A stretch of 64,000 nt of DNA from Sulfurospirillum oryzae (GTDB taxonomy: Bacteria > Campylobacterota > Campylobacteria > Campylobacterales > Sulfurospirillaceae): positions 62,001 to 126,000 of the forward strand of contig NZ_JANZKZ010000005.1 of assembly GCF_025770725.1 (NCBI RefSeq), in the 5' to 3' direction. The position numbers were made by a program, and so were the translations under genes. Below are positions 27,773 to 34,060 of the stretch, piece by piece (position 1 is the first letter of the stretch; the number at the start of each line of letters is the position of its first letter). A model generated the notes under the pieces. The model did not search any database, had not been told where the DNA came from, and saw only the letters and a list, made by a program, of their open reading frames with translations.

Positions 27773-28110
27773 TCAAAGTGTATGGTATTACGACGTGTGG
27801 TAGTGTCAAAAAGGCGATTGCTTTTTTTAAAGCGAAGGTTGTTCCTTATGCGTTCATAGACCTTAAAAGTACGCAGATCAGTGAAGCAAAACTAAAAGAG
27901 TGGCTAAGTAAGCAACCCATGTCGGTTATCTTTAATACCAAAGGAACGAAGTTTAAAACTTTGGGGCTTAGTAAAGAGATGGACGATACAGAAAAAGGAA
28001 GTTGGCTTTTAAGGGAGCAGCTACTTTTTAAACGCCCCATCGTTGAGTGTGAAGATGGAGCGCTTTTGGTTGGTTTTGACGAAGAAGTTTATACGAAAAA
28101 ATTTGTTTAA
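27769..28110 (+). CDS. ArsC/Spx/YffB-family thioredoxin-fold protein
   Basis: This 113-aa protein has the arsenate-reductase-like fold. The N-terminus KVYGITTCGSVKKAIAFFK carries one active-site Cys (residue 11) followed by GSV, as in YffB/Spx-type proteins rather than true arsenate reductases. Other family blocks are FIDLKS near residue 30 and KRPIVECEDGALLVGF near 87. The biochemical role of this subgroup is not established. It is translationally coupled to the cyclase (ATGA overlap) and ends convergent with the LysE-type gene, overlapping it by 4 nt. Confidence 0.85.
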   Translation: MIKVYGITTCGSVKKAIAFFKAKVVPYAFIDLKSTQISEAKLKEWLSKQPMSVIFNTKGTKFKTLGLSKEMDDTEKGSWLLREQLLFKRPIVECEDGALLVGFDEEVYTKKFV

Positions 28111-28730
28111 GCGCGTTTTGCCGTTGAGATAAAAAAGGCTGCAAGGAGTAAAAAAGCTCCTGTAAGACGGTTTTGAATCTTGATGGCGCGAATAGACTTA
28201 ATGACATTTTTAAGGCGTGAAGCTAAAGAACTATAGCCTGTCATGACAATAATATCCACACAAATGAGTGTTGCGCAGATGATGACAAACTGCCCCAAAA
28301 GTGGTTCATTTGGATTGAGAAATTGGGGAATAAACGCAACCAAAAAGACCGTTGCTTTGATGTTGGTCAGGTTAATCAATGTGGCTTGAATAAACGCTTT
28401 GGAAGCGGAAAAAGCTTTGATCTGCTCTGCATCGTTTGGTAAATGTGGTTTTTCAATAAACTTCATAACCCCCAAAAAGACCAAGTACACCACGCCAATC
28501 CATTTAATGATATTAAAAAGAAGCAATGAACTCATAATGAGAGATCCAAGCCCGATAACGACAACAAACGTTTGCACAAAAAGGCCCATCTGAAGCCCCA
28601 TAATAGCGGCATAAGAGCGCTTAAGTCCGTATTTGAGTCCATAGTTCATAGAGACAACAGCTCCAGCACCAGGAGAGACACTAATGAGAATGGAGGCGAC
28701 GAGCATCGTAAGCCAAATATCGAGTTGCAT
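28107..28730 (-). CDS. LysE-family exporter
   Basis: This is a 207-aa inner-membrane protein of the LysE/RhtB family, which exports amino acids or related compounds. It has about six hydrophobic segments and the family N-terminal signature ISVSPGAGAVVSMNYGLKYG. The specific substrate cannot be deduced. It is convergent with the ArsC-like gene (4-nt overlap). A second, distant paralogue lies at 33434-34060 in the same arrangement. The upstream region (28731-28947) is unusually rich in inverted repeats. Confidence 0.88.
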   Translation of the reverse strand: MQLDIWLTMLVASILISVSPGAGAVVSMNYGLKYGLKRSYAAIMGLQMGLFVQTFVVVIGLGSLIMSSLLLFNIIKWIGVVYLVFLGVMKFIEKPHLPNDAEQIKAFSASKAFIQATLINLTNIKATVFLVAFIPQFLNPNEPLLGQFVIICATLICVDIIVMTGYSSLASRLKNVIKSIRAIKIQNRLTGAFLLLAAFFISTAKRA

Positions 28731-28947: not shown

Positions 28948-28976
28948 TTGATAAAAGCGTGTTCATGTGGTACAAT
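28948..28976 (+). promoter_or_regulatory. Sigma70 promoter of the NosL/ABC operon
   Basis: TTGATA (28948-28953) and TACAAT (28971-28976) are separated by 17 bp, an almost ideal housekeeping promoter. It predicts a transcript starting near 28983, with a leader of about 19 nt that carries GAGGAG before the ATG at 29002. This supports the shorter start of the first gene, since the ATG at 28948 would lie inside the promoter. Confidence 0.7.
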
Positions 28977-29001: not shown

Positions 29002-29313
29002 ATGGTTGCTCGTATCACGTTTTTTGCACTATTCTTGACACTTTGCATCACGATTATGGCACAAATCTTTTACTATTCTTATGCATGCGCACTCACACCT
29101 TCAAAGATTACATGTAAAGAAGAGTTGGTCGCTCTTTCTGGATTGCCTGATCTTGCTTTGGTAAGTGAAGCACACTACGTTCGCCACCGAAGTCTCAGTG
29201 ATGTTTTCTCTTACTTTGGCGATTCACCTGAGCTTTTAGAGTATTTTCCTTCTACTTTCGTGTATCACTACGCACCCAATTCTCAGCCTTCAAGGATAGA
29301 ACGTGTCTTTTAA
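29002..29313 (+). CDS. Small single-pass membrane protein, first gene of the NosL/ABC operon
   Basis: I do not recognise the family. The 103-aa product has one N-terminal membrane helix (FFALFLTLCITIMAQIFYYS, residues 6-25) and then an extracytoplasmic region with two cysteines (CALTPSKITC). I chose the ATG at 29002 because it follows GAGGAG and lies downstream of the promoter; the in-frame ATG at 28948 has neither. It overlaps the permease gene by 11 nt, so it is probably part of the same system. The Cys pair facing the periplasm could bind metal or be a disulfide, which is speculation. An 11-of-12 copy of the ACATGT palindrome encodes ITCK here. Confidence 0.7.
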   Translation: MVARITFFALFLTLCITIMAQIFYYSYACALTPSKITCKEELVALSGLPDLALVSEAHYVRHRSLSDVFSYFGDSPELLEYFPSTFVYHYAPNSQPSRIERVF

Positions 29314-30490
29314 ATTCAATTTTTTATTGTTAGATTACGGGGTTCGCTCTCTCACGCGCCGTGCGGGGAAAAGCTTTTTTATCTTTTTTATTTTAAGTTT
29401 GCTCATTTTTTTACTCTCTTCAATTTTGATGATAGCAGACGCTATTAAACTTGAACTGAGCACCACACTCAAAACGTTACCTCAAATTACACTTCAACGC
29501 TTTGTTGCGGGTAAGCAGACTGATGTACCGATAGAGAGAGTCGATGCACTTTTAGATATTGAAGGCATTAGTGCGATAACGCCTCGTGTGTGGGGATATT
29601 ATTACTTCAAACCTGCAGGCGTAAATTTTTCCGTTGTTGGTGTGGATGCTTATGAAGAGCAGTACTCTGCTACGCTTTCTAAACTCACACAGAGTTTTGA
29701 TGTGAAACTGCTTGAGAGTGAAAATGCCATGATCGTGGGTGTTGGTGTGAAAAAAGTCTTAGCGGAAAATTATTACACCGACTTTTTTAATTTCGTTACC
29801 AGCGAAGGAAAATGGCAACGCGTTTCGATCGCGGGTGTTTTTAATTCAGACCTTGCTTTAGAATCCAATGATCTGATTATTTTGCCTAAAAAATTGGCGT
29901 ATGCTATTTTTGGAATGGAAAAAGACAAGGCCACCGACATTATGGTTAAAGTGGCTAATGTGAAAGAGATTCCTACCATCGTGCAGAAAATTACGACACG
30001 CTTTCCTGATATGCGCGCTATCACTCAAGATGACATTAGAGTCAGTTACCAAAATATTTTTGATTATAAAAGCGGCTTTTTCCTCTCCCTTTTTAGTATT
30101 TGTGCCTTTGCTTTTTTTATTATTATTTACGATAAAACAAGCGGCTTGAGTTCTGAAGAGAAGAAGGAAATCGGCATTTTAAAAGCGATTGGTTGGAGCA
30201 GTGATGATATTTTGAAAGAGAAGTTTTTTGAGAGTTTCATTATTGCTATAGGTGCTTTTTTAGTAGGGATTGCGTTATCTCTTTTTTACGTCTATGGCTT
30301 GCAAGCACCACTTTTGCGCAATGTATTCATGGGGTACTCCGAGCTTAAACCTGCTTTTGCATTGCCGTTTCATCTAGATTTTGCGATGCTTTTTCTACTG
30401 TTTCTCTTAAGTGTTCCCATTTACATCGCCGCCACTTTGATTCCTTCGTGGCGAGCTTCAAGTTTAGATGCTGATGAGGTGATGCGATGA
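29303..30490 (+). CDS. FtsX/MacB-type ABC transporter permease
   Basis: This 395-aa inner-membrane subunit has one N-terminal helix (SFFIFFILSLLIFLLSSIL, about residues 23-42), a periplasmic domain of about 200 residues, and three C-terminal helices (from about 260). The family motif EKKEIGILKAIGWSSDDIL precedes the penultimate helix. The layout is that of MacB/LolC/FtsX permeases, which work on periplasmic or envelope substrates rather than moving solutes across the membrane. The stop overlaps the ATPase start by 4 nt. Genes for a NosL-like protein and a CxxC membrane protein follow in the operon, suggesting a role in extracytoplasmic metal or thiol handling. Confidence 0.88.
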   Translation: MSFKFNFLLLDYGVRSLTRRAGKSFFIFFILSLLIFLLSSILMIADAIKLELSTTLKTLPQITLQRFVAGKQTDVPIERVDALLDIEGISAITPRVWGYYYFKPAGVNFSVVGVDAYEEQYSATLSKLTQSFDVKLLESENAMIVGVGVKKVLAENYYTDFFNFVTSEGKWQRVSIAGVFNSDLALESNDLIILPKKLAYAIFGMEKDKATDIMVKVANVKEIPTIVQKITTRFPDMRAITQDDIRVSYQNIFDYKSGFFLSLFSICAFAFFIIIYDKTSGLSSEEKKEIGILKAIGWSSDDILKEKFFESFIIAIGAFLVGIALSLFYVYGLQAPLLRNVFMGYSELKPAFALPFHLDFAMLFLLFLLSVPIYIAATLIPSWRASSLDADEVMR

Positions 30491-31155
30491 TTTGGGTTCA
30501 AGAGGTAAGTAAAAGCTTCATTCAAGGCGATGAGAACGTTCATGCGTTGCATAGTATATCTTTACATGTAAAGAAAGCAGAGTGCGTGGTACTTAAAGGA
30601 TCAAGCGGTAGTGGCAAAAGTACTTTACTCTCTTTAATAGCAGGGCTCTCTCAGCCAACGAGCGGTGAAGTGCGTGTAGATAGTAAAGAAATTTCTAAAT
30701 TACCAGAGCATTTTAGTGCTGCCCTTAGACGCCAGAAAATTGGGTTTATTTTTCAAAAATACCACCTTATAGCACATCTTAGCGTTCTTGAGAATGTCAT
30801 GGCTCCTTTGATTCCTGAGAACCTTCCTTTACATGTACTCGAGAGCAAAGCCAAAGCAGTGATGGAGCAGTGTGGCATTGCGCACAAAGCTGGGATGCGT
30901 GTGAACCGTCTTTCTGGAGGAGAACAACAACGTGTGGCAATCGCACGTGCCTTGATCAATGATCCTTTAGTCATTTTAGCCGATGAGCCAACCGCCAATC
31001 TCGACGAAAAACTCTCTCGTGAGCTTATAGCCTCTCTTGAGAAACTCAAACAAAGTGGCGTGACACTCCTCATTGCAACACACGATCCGCTCTTTTTTGA
31101 CCTTGCGTTTGTTGACCATGTTGTTGAGATTAAAAATGGTGAGATTGTGGTATGA
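30487..31155 (+). CDS. LolD/MacB-type ABC transporter ATPase
   Basis: This is a 222-aa ATP-binding subunit that should pair with the upstream permease. Motifs are Walker [10 protein letters not shown] near residue 38, Q-loop FIFQKYHL, signature [15 protein letters not shown] near 140, Walker [14 protein letters not shown] near 160 and H-loop IATHD. The closest group by motif is LolD/FtsE/MacB. It overlaps both neighbours by 4 nt. One perfect TTTACATGTAAA palindrome (30561-30572, read LHVK) and a 10-of-12 copy (30828-30839, read LHVL) lie inside the gene, only 267 bp apart. Confidence 0.92.
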
Positions 31156-32114
31156 GCTTAACCCCTGAGATTATCTCGCTGCTTATTCTCGATGCCATTT
31201 TTCTTTTTTTTGGCATCATTGCTTTTGCCATAGGTTTTCGCATAGCGCTCAAGTGGGACAGTCATGCAACCACACCCCTTCAATACACGCTTTCTAAACA
31301 GAGCTATTTAGTTTCGACCATTATCAAATACATTTTTATGCTCAAACTACCTCTGTTTCTCTTTTTTATTTATACATGCGATAAGCTCTCCACCATCATC
31401 ACCGGTGCTATGTGTGCGAGTGGCGTGGTGAATTCGGTTGATTTTGGGCTTTATTTGACGCTGTTTAAACTTTTAAATCTTTATCTCTTTGGCTTTTGGT
31501 TGCTGCTTCACTATGCTGATATAAACGATGAAAAATTACCCTTTACTCAGCTGAAATTTGTTTTGTTTGTCCTTTTTTCAGTACCGCTTTTTGTGGAAAT
31601 TGGGCTTGAGATAGCTTTTTTTGCAGGGCTTAACATCAGTAAGATTGTCAGTTGTTGCGGTACACTTTTCTCTGCATCAAGCAGTTCGTACATTTCACTA
31701 CTTTTTGCGGTGGATGCCTCATTGTGGGTCTGGTTTTTCTATGGCTTCTTTGGCATGATTATGCTTGCTTTTTGGTTGAAAAATATGTCTTTGATGATTT
31801 TTGCCAATGGCATGTTCTTACTTTTTTCAATCATCACATTGATTGTCTTTTTTAGTCCGTATGTTTATGAACTCCCAACTCATCGCTGTCCGTTTTGTTT
31901 GTTGCAGAGGGATTATTATTTTGTGGGATATGCGCTTTACACACTTCTCTTTGCTGGAACATTTTATGGCATTGGCGGAGGTGTTTTAGCGTTGGTGTCA
32001 CACAAGGCACAACCACATTTTATGAGAGCCTCTTTGGTGTTGAATGCGCTTTATCTCCTGATCTTAACGAGTTATCCTGTGGTCTATTTTATACGAAATG
32101 GAGTTTGGTTGTGA
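31152..32114 (+). CDS. Polytopic membrane protein with DsbB-like CPFC motif
   Basis: I do not recognise a named family. The 320-aa product has about eight hydrophobic helices. Cysteines form three groups: [14 protein letters not shown] near residue 76-89, SCCGTLF near 165, and [17 protein letters not shown] near 240. The last resembles the periplasmic active site of DsbB (PCxLCxxxR), suggesting a quinone-linked thiol oxidoreductase or a cysteine-based metal site. It is embedded between the ABC ATPase (4-nt overlap) and the NosL-like gene (GTGA overlap). NosL-type proteins bind Cu(I) through Cys/Met, so a membrane partner that keeps thiols in the correct state would make sense; this is inference. 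Confidence 0.7.
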
Positions 32115-32617
32115 AAAAAAATGTTTTCGTCGGTGTGTTGATTGTATTTCCTCTCTTAGCGCTTGGTGGGCTTTTTTGGTTTTTACATGTAAAGCATCAA
32201 CTGCCAACTGACATAAGCAATAGTTCCAAAGTCGCCTTAGAATTTAAGGACAACACGATTCAATGCCCAGAGTGTCACATGTTCATCGTGGGTAAAAAGC
32301 ACACAGCACAAATTGTCACAGGAGATTCTAAAACACACTTTTTTGATGATGTTGGATGTGCTATTTTGTGGATGAAAGAGCAAAAAATCGAGCCACAAAC
32401 CGTTGCTATGTGGGTGTATAGCAATGATACGAACCGTTATATAAATGCCTTTAAGGCAGCTTATTCCATCAACGATGAAACGCCGATGCATTATGGCTTT
32501 GGAGCGTATGAGCAGAAGAAAGAGAGTATGATAGACTTTAATGAGATGCGTCTTCGCATGCTCAGAGGCGAAAATATGAGCGACTCTAAAATACGCCAAC
32601 ACTTACAAGGACACTAA
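32111..32617 (+). CDS. NosL-like membrane-anchored copper-binding protein
   Basis: The 168-aa product has one N-terminal helix (VFVGVLIVFPLLALGGLFWF) and a periplasmic NosL-like domain: CPECHMFIVGKKHTAQI near residue 53, then THFFDDVGCAILWMKEQ near 77-93. NosL binds Cu(I) and helps deliver it to N2O reductase. No nosZ is in the window, so this paralogue probably serves another copper or thiol protein. Unlike typical NosL there is no lipobox; the anchor is a helix. I chose the GTG at 32111, which overlaps the previous stop as GTGA; in-frame codons further upstream lie inside the previous gene. A perfect palindrome (32182-32193) encodes FLHVK right after the helix. Confidence 0.8.
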   Translation: MKKNVFVGVLIVFPLLALGGLFWFLHVKHQLPTDISNSSKVALEFKDNTIQCPECHMFIVGKKHTAQIVTGDSKTHFFDDVGCAILWMKEQKIEPQTVAMWVYSNDTNRYINAFKAAYSINDETPMHYGFGAYEQKKESMIDFNEMRLRMLRGENMSDSKIRQHLQGH

Positions 32618-32618
32618 G

Positions 32619-33437
32619 ATGAAAGTAGCCATCAGCGGAGCGAGCGGTTTTGTTGCCAATGCACTCAAAAAAAGATTCCCAAATTTTGTCGTGATTGAGC
32701 GAAAAGATGACGTGGAAGCTATCAAGCAAAAACTTGAAGGGGTAGGTGCTGTTTTTAATCTCTCGGGTGCGCCCATCGTTGCGAGATGGAATGAGGCGTA
32801 TAAAAAAGTGCTTTACACAAGTCGTATTGAGACAACTAAGAAGCTTGTCGAAGCGATCAATCAAAGTGAAATAGAGCATTTTATCTCCACCTCTGCGGTA
32901 GGCATTTACCCCAATAACACACCTTGCGATGAGCGAACCCTTCCTTTAGGCGATGATTTTTTAGGAAAGCTTGCGCAGGATTGGGAAGCGGAAGCTTTAA
33001 AATGTACGAAACTCACCACCATTTTACGTTTTGGTGTTGTGCTAGGTCCTGATGGAGGAGCACTCTCCAAAATGCTACCTGCTTTTAAACTAGGACTTGG
33101 AGGCATTATTGGCGATGGGCGAATGATGACCAGTTGGATTGATATTGACGATCTTGTTGCCATTTATGCTTTTGTGTTGGAGCACCAATGCGAGGGCATT
33201 TATAATGCTACTGCTCCGCAGCCACTGAGTAACTACGACTTTACAAAAATATTAGGAAAAGTGTTGCATCGCCCCACTTTTTTACCTATACCTTCTTTTA
33301 TGATCAAACTGCTTTTTGGCGAAGGTTCAACGGTTTTACTTGATAGCAAAGAGGTTTACCCTAAGGCATTGCTTGAAAAAGGATTTACTTTTAAGTATGG
33401 CGAGTTAGAAAAATCCCTTATAAAGATTTTAGCCTAA
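32619..33437 (+). CDS. TIGR01777-family NAD-dependent epimerase/dehydratase (YfcH-like)
   Basis: This 272-aa Rossmann-fold protein has the short N-terminal nucleotide-binding motif ISGASGFVANALKKRF. Further family blocks are FNLSGAPIVARWNEAYKKVL near residue 46, STSAVGIYPNN near 90 and LRFGVVLGPDGGALSKML near 137. It belongs to the extended SDR subgroup TIGR01777 (YfcH/SulA), whose substrate is unknown. It starts 1 nt after the NosL-like gene and could be the last gene of that operon, though no functional link is obvious. It ends convergent with the second LysE gene, overlapping by 4 nt. Confidence 0.88.
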   Translation: MKVAISGASGFVANALKKRFPNFVVIERKDDVEAIKQKLEGVGAVFNLSGAPIVARWNEAYKKVLYTSRIETTKKLVEAINQSEIEHFISTSAVGIYPNNTPCDERTLPLGDDFLGKLAQDWEAEALKCTKLTTILRFGVVLGPDGGALSKMLPAFKLGLGGIIGDGRMMTSWIDIDDLVAIYAFVLEHQCEGIYNATAPQPLSNYDFTKILGKVLHRPTFLPIPSFMIKLLFGEGSTVLLDSKEVYPKALLEKGFTFKYGELEKSLIKILA

Positions 33438-34060
33438 CGCTTTTCTAAAAAGAGTGTAATGCCAAGAGAAACCATCACGATTCCTGAGATCGCATCTAAA
33501 CTCTGGCGTACACTTTTTTTCGTGATAAAACCATTTGCTGAGACAATGGTATAGACTAAAAATGCCTGCCAGATCGTTCCTACAATAAAATGCAGCAAGG
33601 CTAGAAAGAGTGATTGTGCAAGTGCAGAACTCTCGTGAGAGATAAATTGTGGTAAAAATGCCATATAGAAAATGACGGCTTTTGGGTTAAGGACATTAGA
33701 TAAAAATCCCTCTTGTAATGATGTCCAAAAATTAAACGGTTTTTTCGCAACCACTTTTTGATGCGTTCCTTTGGCATTCCAAAAAGACCTTAGTGAGCCA
33801 ATGCCGAGCCAAATAAGATACAAAGCTCCCGCAATTTTTAAAATTGTAAATGCTGTGGCCGAATAGAGTAAAACCGCAGAGATACCTACTGCTGAAAGTG
33901 TTGCATGCACAAAAAGCCCTGAACAAATCCCCAAACTTGAAACAAGTCCATCTTTAGCGCCCCCACGCAATGTATTACGAATAACGATCATTGTATCGGC
34001 ACCAGGTGTCATTGTCAGTAATGTGATAGCGACTAAAAATGTCCAAAGATCTAATGGCAT
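33434..34060 (-). CDS. LysE-family exporter (second copy)
   Basis: This 208-aa inner-membrane exporter has about six hydrophobic segments and the signature MTPGADTMIVIRNTLRGG of the LysE/RhtB family. It differs clearly in sequence from the paralogue at 28107-28730, so its substrate may differ. Downstream it overlaps the end of the TIGR01777 gene by 4 nt. Upstream, about 105 nt separate it from the divergent flavodoxin operon, and that gap holds the Fur-like promoter of the flavodoxin side. Confidence 0.88.
   Translation of the reverse strand: MPLDLWTFLVAITLLTMTPGADTMIVIRNTLRGGAKDGLVSSLGICSGLFVHATLSAVGISAVLLYSATAFTILKIAGALYLIWLGIGSLRSFWNAKGTHQKVVAKKPFNFWTSLQEGFLSNVLNPKAVIFYMAFLPQFISHESSALAQSLFLALLHFIVGTIWQAFLVYTIVSANGFITKKSVRQSLDAISGIVMVSLGITLFLEKR

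Follow-up and report, generated by a model that had tools for sequence, protein, structure and literature searches.

What does a five-gene operon that combines an ABC transporter with a NosL-like protein do in a stretch of DNA holding no nosZ or other nos gene? The question is raised by positions 29002-32617 of a 64,000-nt stretch of the Sulfurospirillum oryzae genome (contig NZ_JANZKZ010000005.1, positions 62,001 to 126,000; hereafter the window), where five genes on the plus strand encode, in order, a small protein (g1), an FtsX/MacB-type permease (gene 2), a LolD-type ATPase (gene 3), a protein with eight transmembrane (TM) helices (gene 4) and a membrane-anchored NosL (gene 5). Successive genes overlap by 11, 4, 4 and 4 nt, as described in the original prediction, which was made from the sequence of the window. 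We put at about 60% the probability that the operon encodes an ATP-driven inner-membrane accessory that matures periplasmic cuproenzymes, chiefly clade II NosZ, with a diverged paralogue serving MccA. This functional assignment draws on context: because the same module usually lies in or beside the nos genes of relatives, and a distant version lies in mcc clusters, it most likely helps to load copper into such enzymes.

Linkage of the module to nos and mcc clusters

A search of the GTDB genome collection placed homologues of gene 4 at 441 sites; the 80 best of these, examined by title, are all from Campylobacterota as far as titles tell, some being titled simply 'bacterium' or 'Proteobacteria bacterium'. 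The five-gene set recurs in the same order across the order Campylobacterales far above chance, so that the clustering on which the original prediction depended is found in other genomes. The nos clusters of S. diekertiae (L085), S. cavolei UCH003 (L098) and others hold all five genes between nosL and nosY, and in other relatives the quartet of g1, permease, ATPase and gene 4 adjoins the nos genes, either downstream of nosY on the same strand, beside nosY on the opposite strand or upstream of nosY-nosZ. Among 44 homologous loci that had at least 6 kb of flank or were already nos-linked, 25 have two or more nos genes no further than 10 kb away, far more than chance would give, since a neighbourhood of some 20 kb is, by our own estimate, roughly 1-2% of a genome. 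Nos linkage requires at least 17 changes on the gene-4 tree, which means that the association was gained or lost many times.

The original prediction knew of no description of exactly this set, but a 2016 paper drew the same five-gene insertion in the S. cavolei nos cluster (PMC4794192, Fig. 5), at the same nosL-nosY position and in the same order (hypothetical, ABC permease, ABC ATPase and two hypotheticals). The parts of that account consulted here assign no function, analyse no families and say nothing of stand-alone or mcc copies. As far as the open literature goes, the recurrence of the module at stand-alone sites and its order-wide distribution are new, as is its recurrence in mcc clusters, although Kern et al. 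2011 may list an mcc copy.

Elsewhere in the S. oryzae genome, on a contig (C1) other than that of the window (C5), lies a complete clade II nos cluster, so the reported absence of nos genes is true of the window and not of the genome. This cluster encodes a NosZ of 867 aa that passes the Sec-dependent NosZ cut-off, together with NosB, NosD, NosG, two c-type cytochromes, NosH, NosF, NosL and NosY; besides this NosL it encodes a second one with 73% identity to gene 5, and one more protein of the NosL family. The g1-permease-ATPase-gene 4 quartet is missing from it, with a gap of 62 bp where relatives have the quartet (locus L067 10672-12992, G000:C1). No linkage of the window copy to nosZ or nosDFY was found: it stands alone, with nosZ on the other contig. 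Of the five genes, the nos cluster retains just the one for NosL, so the four remaining parts may come in trans from the window copy.

A second, diverged module (permease 32%, ATPase 48%, gene 4 34% and gene 5 40% identical) is contained in the mcc cluster for haem-copper sulfite reductase on contig C4, the MccA of which matches Wolinella MccA (4rkm) over its full length and keeps the CX15CH haem motif. One of the closest known parallels for such modules is NosDFYL, the ABC complex that assembles the CuZ site of NosZ. Both combine an ABC motor with NosL and are encoded in nos clusters, and NosL docks on the ABC motor in NosDFYL, where gene 5 fits the NosL chain of the solved complex (Z about 12.5). 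The module differs in having an FtsX/MacB-type permease instead of NosY, in lacking the NosD beta-helix and in adding g1 and the 8-TM five-cysteine protein; moreover, it occurs alongside nosD, nosF and nosY within the same clusters.

Co-occurrence with NosZ and MccA

We compared the distribution of gene 4 with those of the two enzymes in 299 Campylobacterales genomes of 90% completeness or more, counting NosZ for convincing matches only. Gene 4 was present in 153 genomes, NosZ in 125 and a close MccA in 30. Both gene 4 and NosZ occur in 102 genomes, gene 4 only in 51, NosZ only in 23 and neither in 123, an odds ratio of 10.7 with a nominal p of 8e-20 that ignores shared ancestry. All 30 genomes with an MccA at least 62% identical carry gene 4.

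Several observations weigh against the copper-loading interpretation, beginning with the shared ancestry just mentioned. Forty-one genomes have gene 4 and neither NosZ nor MccA, and 23 genomes with NosZ lack gene 4, so the module is neither specific to NosZ nor required for it. The nos cluster of W. succinogenes has no five-gene insertion (PMC4794192). Thirteen genomes with a distant MccA-like enzyme (about 48-52%) are also without gene 4, and both copper-ligand cysteines are kept in all five such enzymes examined, which rules out a strict requirement of MccA for the module. At loci L205-L209, distant MccA-like octahaem proteins that retain their copper-ligand cysteines have a last haem motif wider than CX15CH, and the neighbours differ, the MccA-like gene being followed immediately by one of some 670-730 aa.

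The 41 module genomes without either enzyme make a further target likely. Some hold the module at conserved housekeeping loci, beside genes that we take from their sequences to be truD/dksA-like, or an M48 protease and prmC-like genes; retention there implies either another target or a module that outlives its enzyme. Genome G016 appears as a case of decay: its L242 locus (C1, from 11131 on) is a decayed mcc cluster, which has lost mccA together with the beginning of mccC yet keeps mccD, the gene for CcsBA and its mcc-type module, and the genome retains both module types.

The same 41 genomes would be expected if the module served general copper homeostasis, by efflux or uptake, that is favoured in organisms rich in cuproenzymes, with nos linkage reflecting co-regulation. 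Some genomes do have the module beside two-component regulators and a DsbD_2 membrane protein, but half of the order lacks it despite the generality of copper stress, and multicopper oxidases and NirK-type cupredoxins (PF07732), which we rejected as the third target, show no association (8/41 module-only versus 5/39 module-free genomes). We consider this explanation improbable. Modules outside nos and mcc clusters that are followed by a DsbD_2 gene were seen in L197 (5924-6634), L188, L190, L191 and L203, sometimes with two-component regulators nearby; the DsbD_2 gene is a possible pointer to another copper target.

The NosL protein and the proposed ABC motor

Gene 5 had been called NosL-like from sequence, and its predicted structure bears this out: judged by the AlphaFold2 model, it is a NosL with a putative Cu(I)-type motif, an identity that appears to be new as far as the open literature goes. 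The model (pLDDT 92) matches the crystal structure of Shewanella NosL (7og7) with a VIA Z of 13.0 (112 residues superposed at rmsd 2.4); for the NosL chains of NosDFYL, Z is 12.3-12.8, and the next VIA row is MerB at 5.7. Sequence search against the PDB returned nothing useful for gene 5, so that fold comparison alone gave NosL, and its score of 18 bits stays below the gathering score of 24 bits for Pfam NosL (PF05573). Clade II NosL is known for a CXXCXM motif (PMC6530538). Gene 5 has CPECHM of this type at 52-57 as well as the second conserved methionine, and C55, M57 and M126 are invariant in 55 of 55 aligned sequences, so the putative Cys/Met metal site whose loss would have told against copper delivery is kept. 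The first cysteine of the CxxC is not universal in the same alignment, a further point against the copper-loading interpretation.

Genes 2 and 3 are of the FtsX/LolD type, as first proposed. The PF02687 domain of gene 2 and the FtsE/LolD-like ATPase of gene 3 (E-values in Table 1) place them among the type VII ABC systems of the FtsX/MacB superfamily. Type VII systems such as MacB, LolCDE and FtsEX work on periplasmic partners and do not pump through the membrane. Gene 2 scores 25.9 bits for MacB_PCD, the MacB-type periplasmic domain, slightly under the cut-off of 27, and finds LolC chains among PDB sequences at E 1e-3. Neither protein belongs to LolCDE by equivalog score: gene 2 reaches 55.7 bits against a lolCE cut-off of 362.45, and gene 3, although nearest to LolD/FtsE, reaches 207.9 bits against a LolD cut-off of 307.75 and is far below both cut-offs. 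The module thus resembles LolCDE, MacB and FtsEX in its permease fold and ATPase and differs from them in its single permease gene, its sub-cut-off scores and its partners, NosL and a cysteine-rich 8-TM protein.

Given these nearest relatives, one might suppose a dedicated Lol-type machine by which lipoproteins of the NosL family (NosL and dNosL) are sorted or released to the proper membrane, copper being incidental to the motor. Canonical NosL is a lipoprotein and a probable Lol substrate (PMC6530538), and NosL-family genes adjoin many modules. However, besides the scores far under the Lol cut-offs, gene 5 is anchored by a TM helix (N-terminal helix 4-28, which has no cysteine and so no lipobox), and sorting leaves no role for the invariant-cysteine protein; we regard this as very improbable.

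A five-cysteine membrane protein family

Gene 4 appears to represent a distinct family of five-cysteine membrane proteins, new as far as the open literature goes. C88, C168, C169, C246 and C249 are all present in 123 of 123 homologues, in which K65 and H244 are identical too, and C246 and C249 sit in HxCPFC. By the positive-inside rule, all five cysteines are predicted to face the periplasm. The AlphaFold2 model contains eight long helices; there was no match to Pfam or NCBIfam, a Foldseek search of the PDB with the model gave no chain at E <= 0.001, and the VIA rows were generic, unrelated helix bundles.

The protein had been described as DsbB-like, and this holds for the motif and not for the profile. 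Like DsbB and VKOR, gene 4 has a CxxC followed by xxxR/K at the membrane surface (CPFCLLQR in the window copy; R or K in most homologues). It differs from them in having eight TM helices and three additional invariant cysteines, and profile and fold comparisons found no match: none of 64 family members matches the DsbB profile, and hhalign to Campylobacterota DsbB gave probabilities of 0.6% and 1.5%. We therefore rejected membership of DsbB; for VKOR there is nothing beyond one sub-threshold match from one homologue.

These features bear on a thiol-redox role, in which gene 4 would be a quinone-linked dithiol oxidoreductase, working as DsbB or VKOR does, that controls whether cysteine ligands in NosL, the CuA site of NosZ or MccA are oxidised or reduced before copper arrives, with the ABC motor gating access. 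The HxCPFCxxQ[RK] motif beside a TM helix, the five invariant cysteines and the weak VKOR hit are all consistent with such an enzyme, but the failed DsbB comparisons and the lack of a PDB fold argue against it, and we think it rather unlikely.

The first protein, g1, had been introduced as a small cysteine protein. No cysteine is conserved among its homologues, which rules out a cysteine-based role; what is conserved is LPDLAxxxExxYxRHRSLSDxFSxF...FPSTFVY, with FVY at the C-terminus. No family library matched g1.

Proposed mechanism and significance

The simplest scheme for a copper-loading accessory, suggested by the gene families and their context, would use ATP to load thiol ligands with Cu(I), or to keep them reduced, on the way to NosZ and MccA. 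The permease and ATPase would act as a type VII mechanotransmission motor on periplasmic partners, transporting nothing through the membrane, and g1 could serve the permease as a small adaptor in the periplasm. The 8-TM protein would offer its five periplasmic thiols (C88, C168/169 and C246/249) to hold and relay Cu(I) or to keep ligand thiols reduced, and the anchored NosL would receive Cu(I) from it and hand it to the NosDFY/NosZ or MccA assembly line. In S. oryzae, the window copy would supply g1, permease, ATPase and gene 4 in trans to the nos cluster. Here we infer copper binding, the order of transfer, the role of the motor and the action in trans.

A machine for copper delivery or thiol redox serving a cuproenzyme, as originally proposed, fits the nos embedding, the mcc paralogue and the NosL fold and motif; its suggested cytochrome oxidase target found no support. 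More tentatively, the module may define a new class of copper-loading machine, with a type VII motor and a five-cysteine 8-TM protein relaying Cu(I) or protecting thiols for NosL-type chaperones, and serving two unrelated cuproenzymes, NosZ and MccA, and at least one third target.

As a biological sink for the greenhouse gas N2O, clade II NosZ is of major importance, and to our knowledge the assembly of its copper sites in Campylobacterota is only partly known. If the module is a second ABC step beside NosDFY, common to the haem-copper sulfite reductase, it would reveal a modular copper-insertion system and give the five-cysteine family a testable job. It also predicts that nos clusters no longer holding the module can be served by the stand-alone copy.

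Operon features and origin of the window copy

The coordinates are collected in Table 1. As noted in the original prediction, a near-consensus promoter-like site is correctly placed, about 25 nt upstream of g1. The region is not enriched in sites of this kind (7 observed against 9.6 expected from shuffled sequence), so that this one is supported by its position only.

Table 1. Features of the five-gene operon (positions in the window)
Feature	Position	Strand	Evidence
Promoter-like site, TTGATA-17-TACAAT, TG before -10	28948-28976	+	Consensus scan 10/12, extended -10
g1, single TM helix, 103 aa	29002-29313	+	No family match
Gene 2, FtsX/MacB-type (type VII) ABC permease, 395 aa	29303-30490	+	PF02687, 2e-13
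Gene 3, LolD/FtsE-type ABC ATPase, 222 aa	30487-31155	+	PF00005, 1.9e-36
Gene 4, 8-TM membrane protein	31152-32114	+	AlphaFold2 model, pLDDT 83.5; no Pfam, NCBIfam or PDB relative
Gene 5, membrane-anchored NosL, GTG start, 168 aa	32111-32617	+	AlphaFold2 model, pLDDT 92; Foldseek/VIA match to NosL

The window operon is a stand-alone paralogue of the membrane module linked to nos and mcc genes. It lies between an ArsC-like/LysE pair and an epimerase gene, a site that it shares with S. diekertiae and several other Sulfurospirillum genomes, and its DNA is 73-82% identical to the copies of relatives. No match was found for carriage of the module on a plasmid. In the gene-4 tree, the window copy nests among both nos-embedded and stand-alone copies. 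Across the whole 3.6 kb module, the nos-embedded and stand-alone copies of one genome are 95.9, 99.1 and 98.3% identical in three genomes, reflecting recent duplication or gene conversion, and only about 67% identical in two further genomes. In genome G009, which has no detectable NosZ, nosY and a NosL gene lie behind the stand-alone module (L211, C1, 5051-9946). Recombination between the nos and stand-alone sites probably best explains both the copy identities and this arrangement.

Two smaller observations concern the module copies and their surroundings. In genome G014, each of the two module copies (L212 and L213) has genes 4 and 5 joined in a single open frame of 493 aa, which suggests a shared frameshift that spread by gene conversion or duplication. 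At the window site, LysE-type exporter-like genes on the minus strand flank the operon on both sides (28107-28730 and 33434-34060), and both are retained at the same site in relatives.

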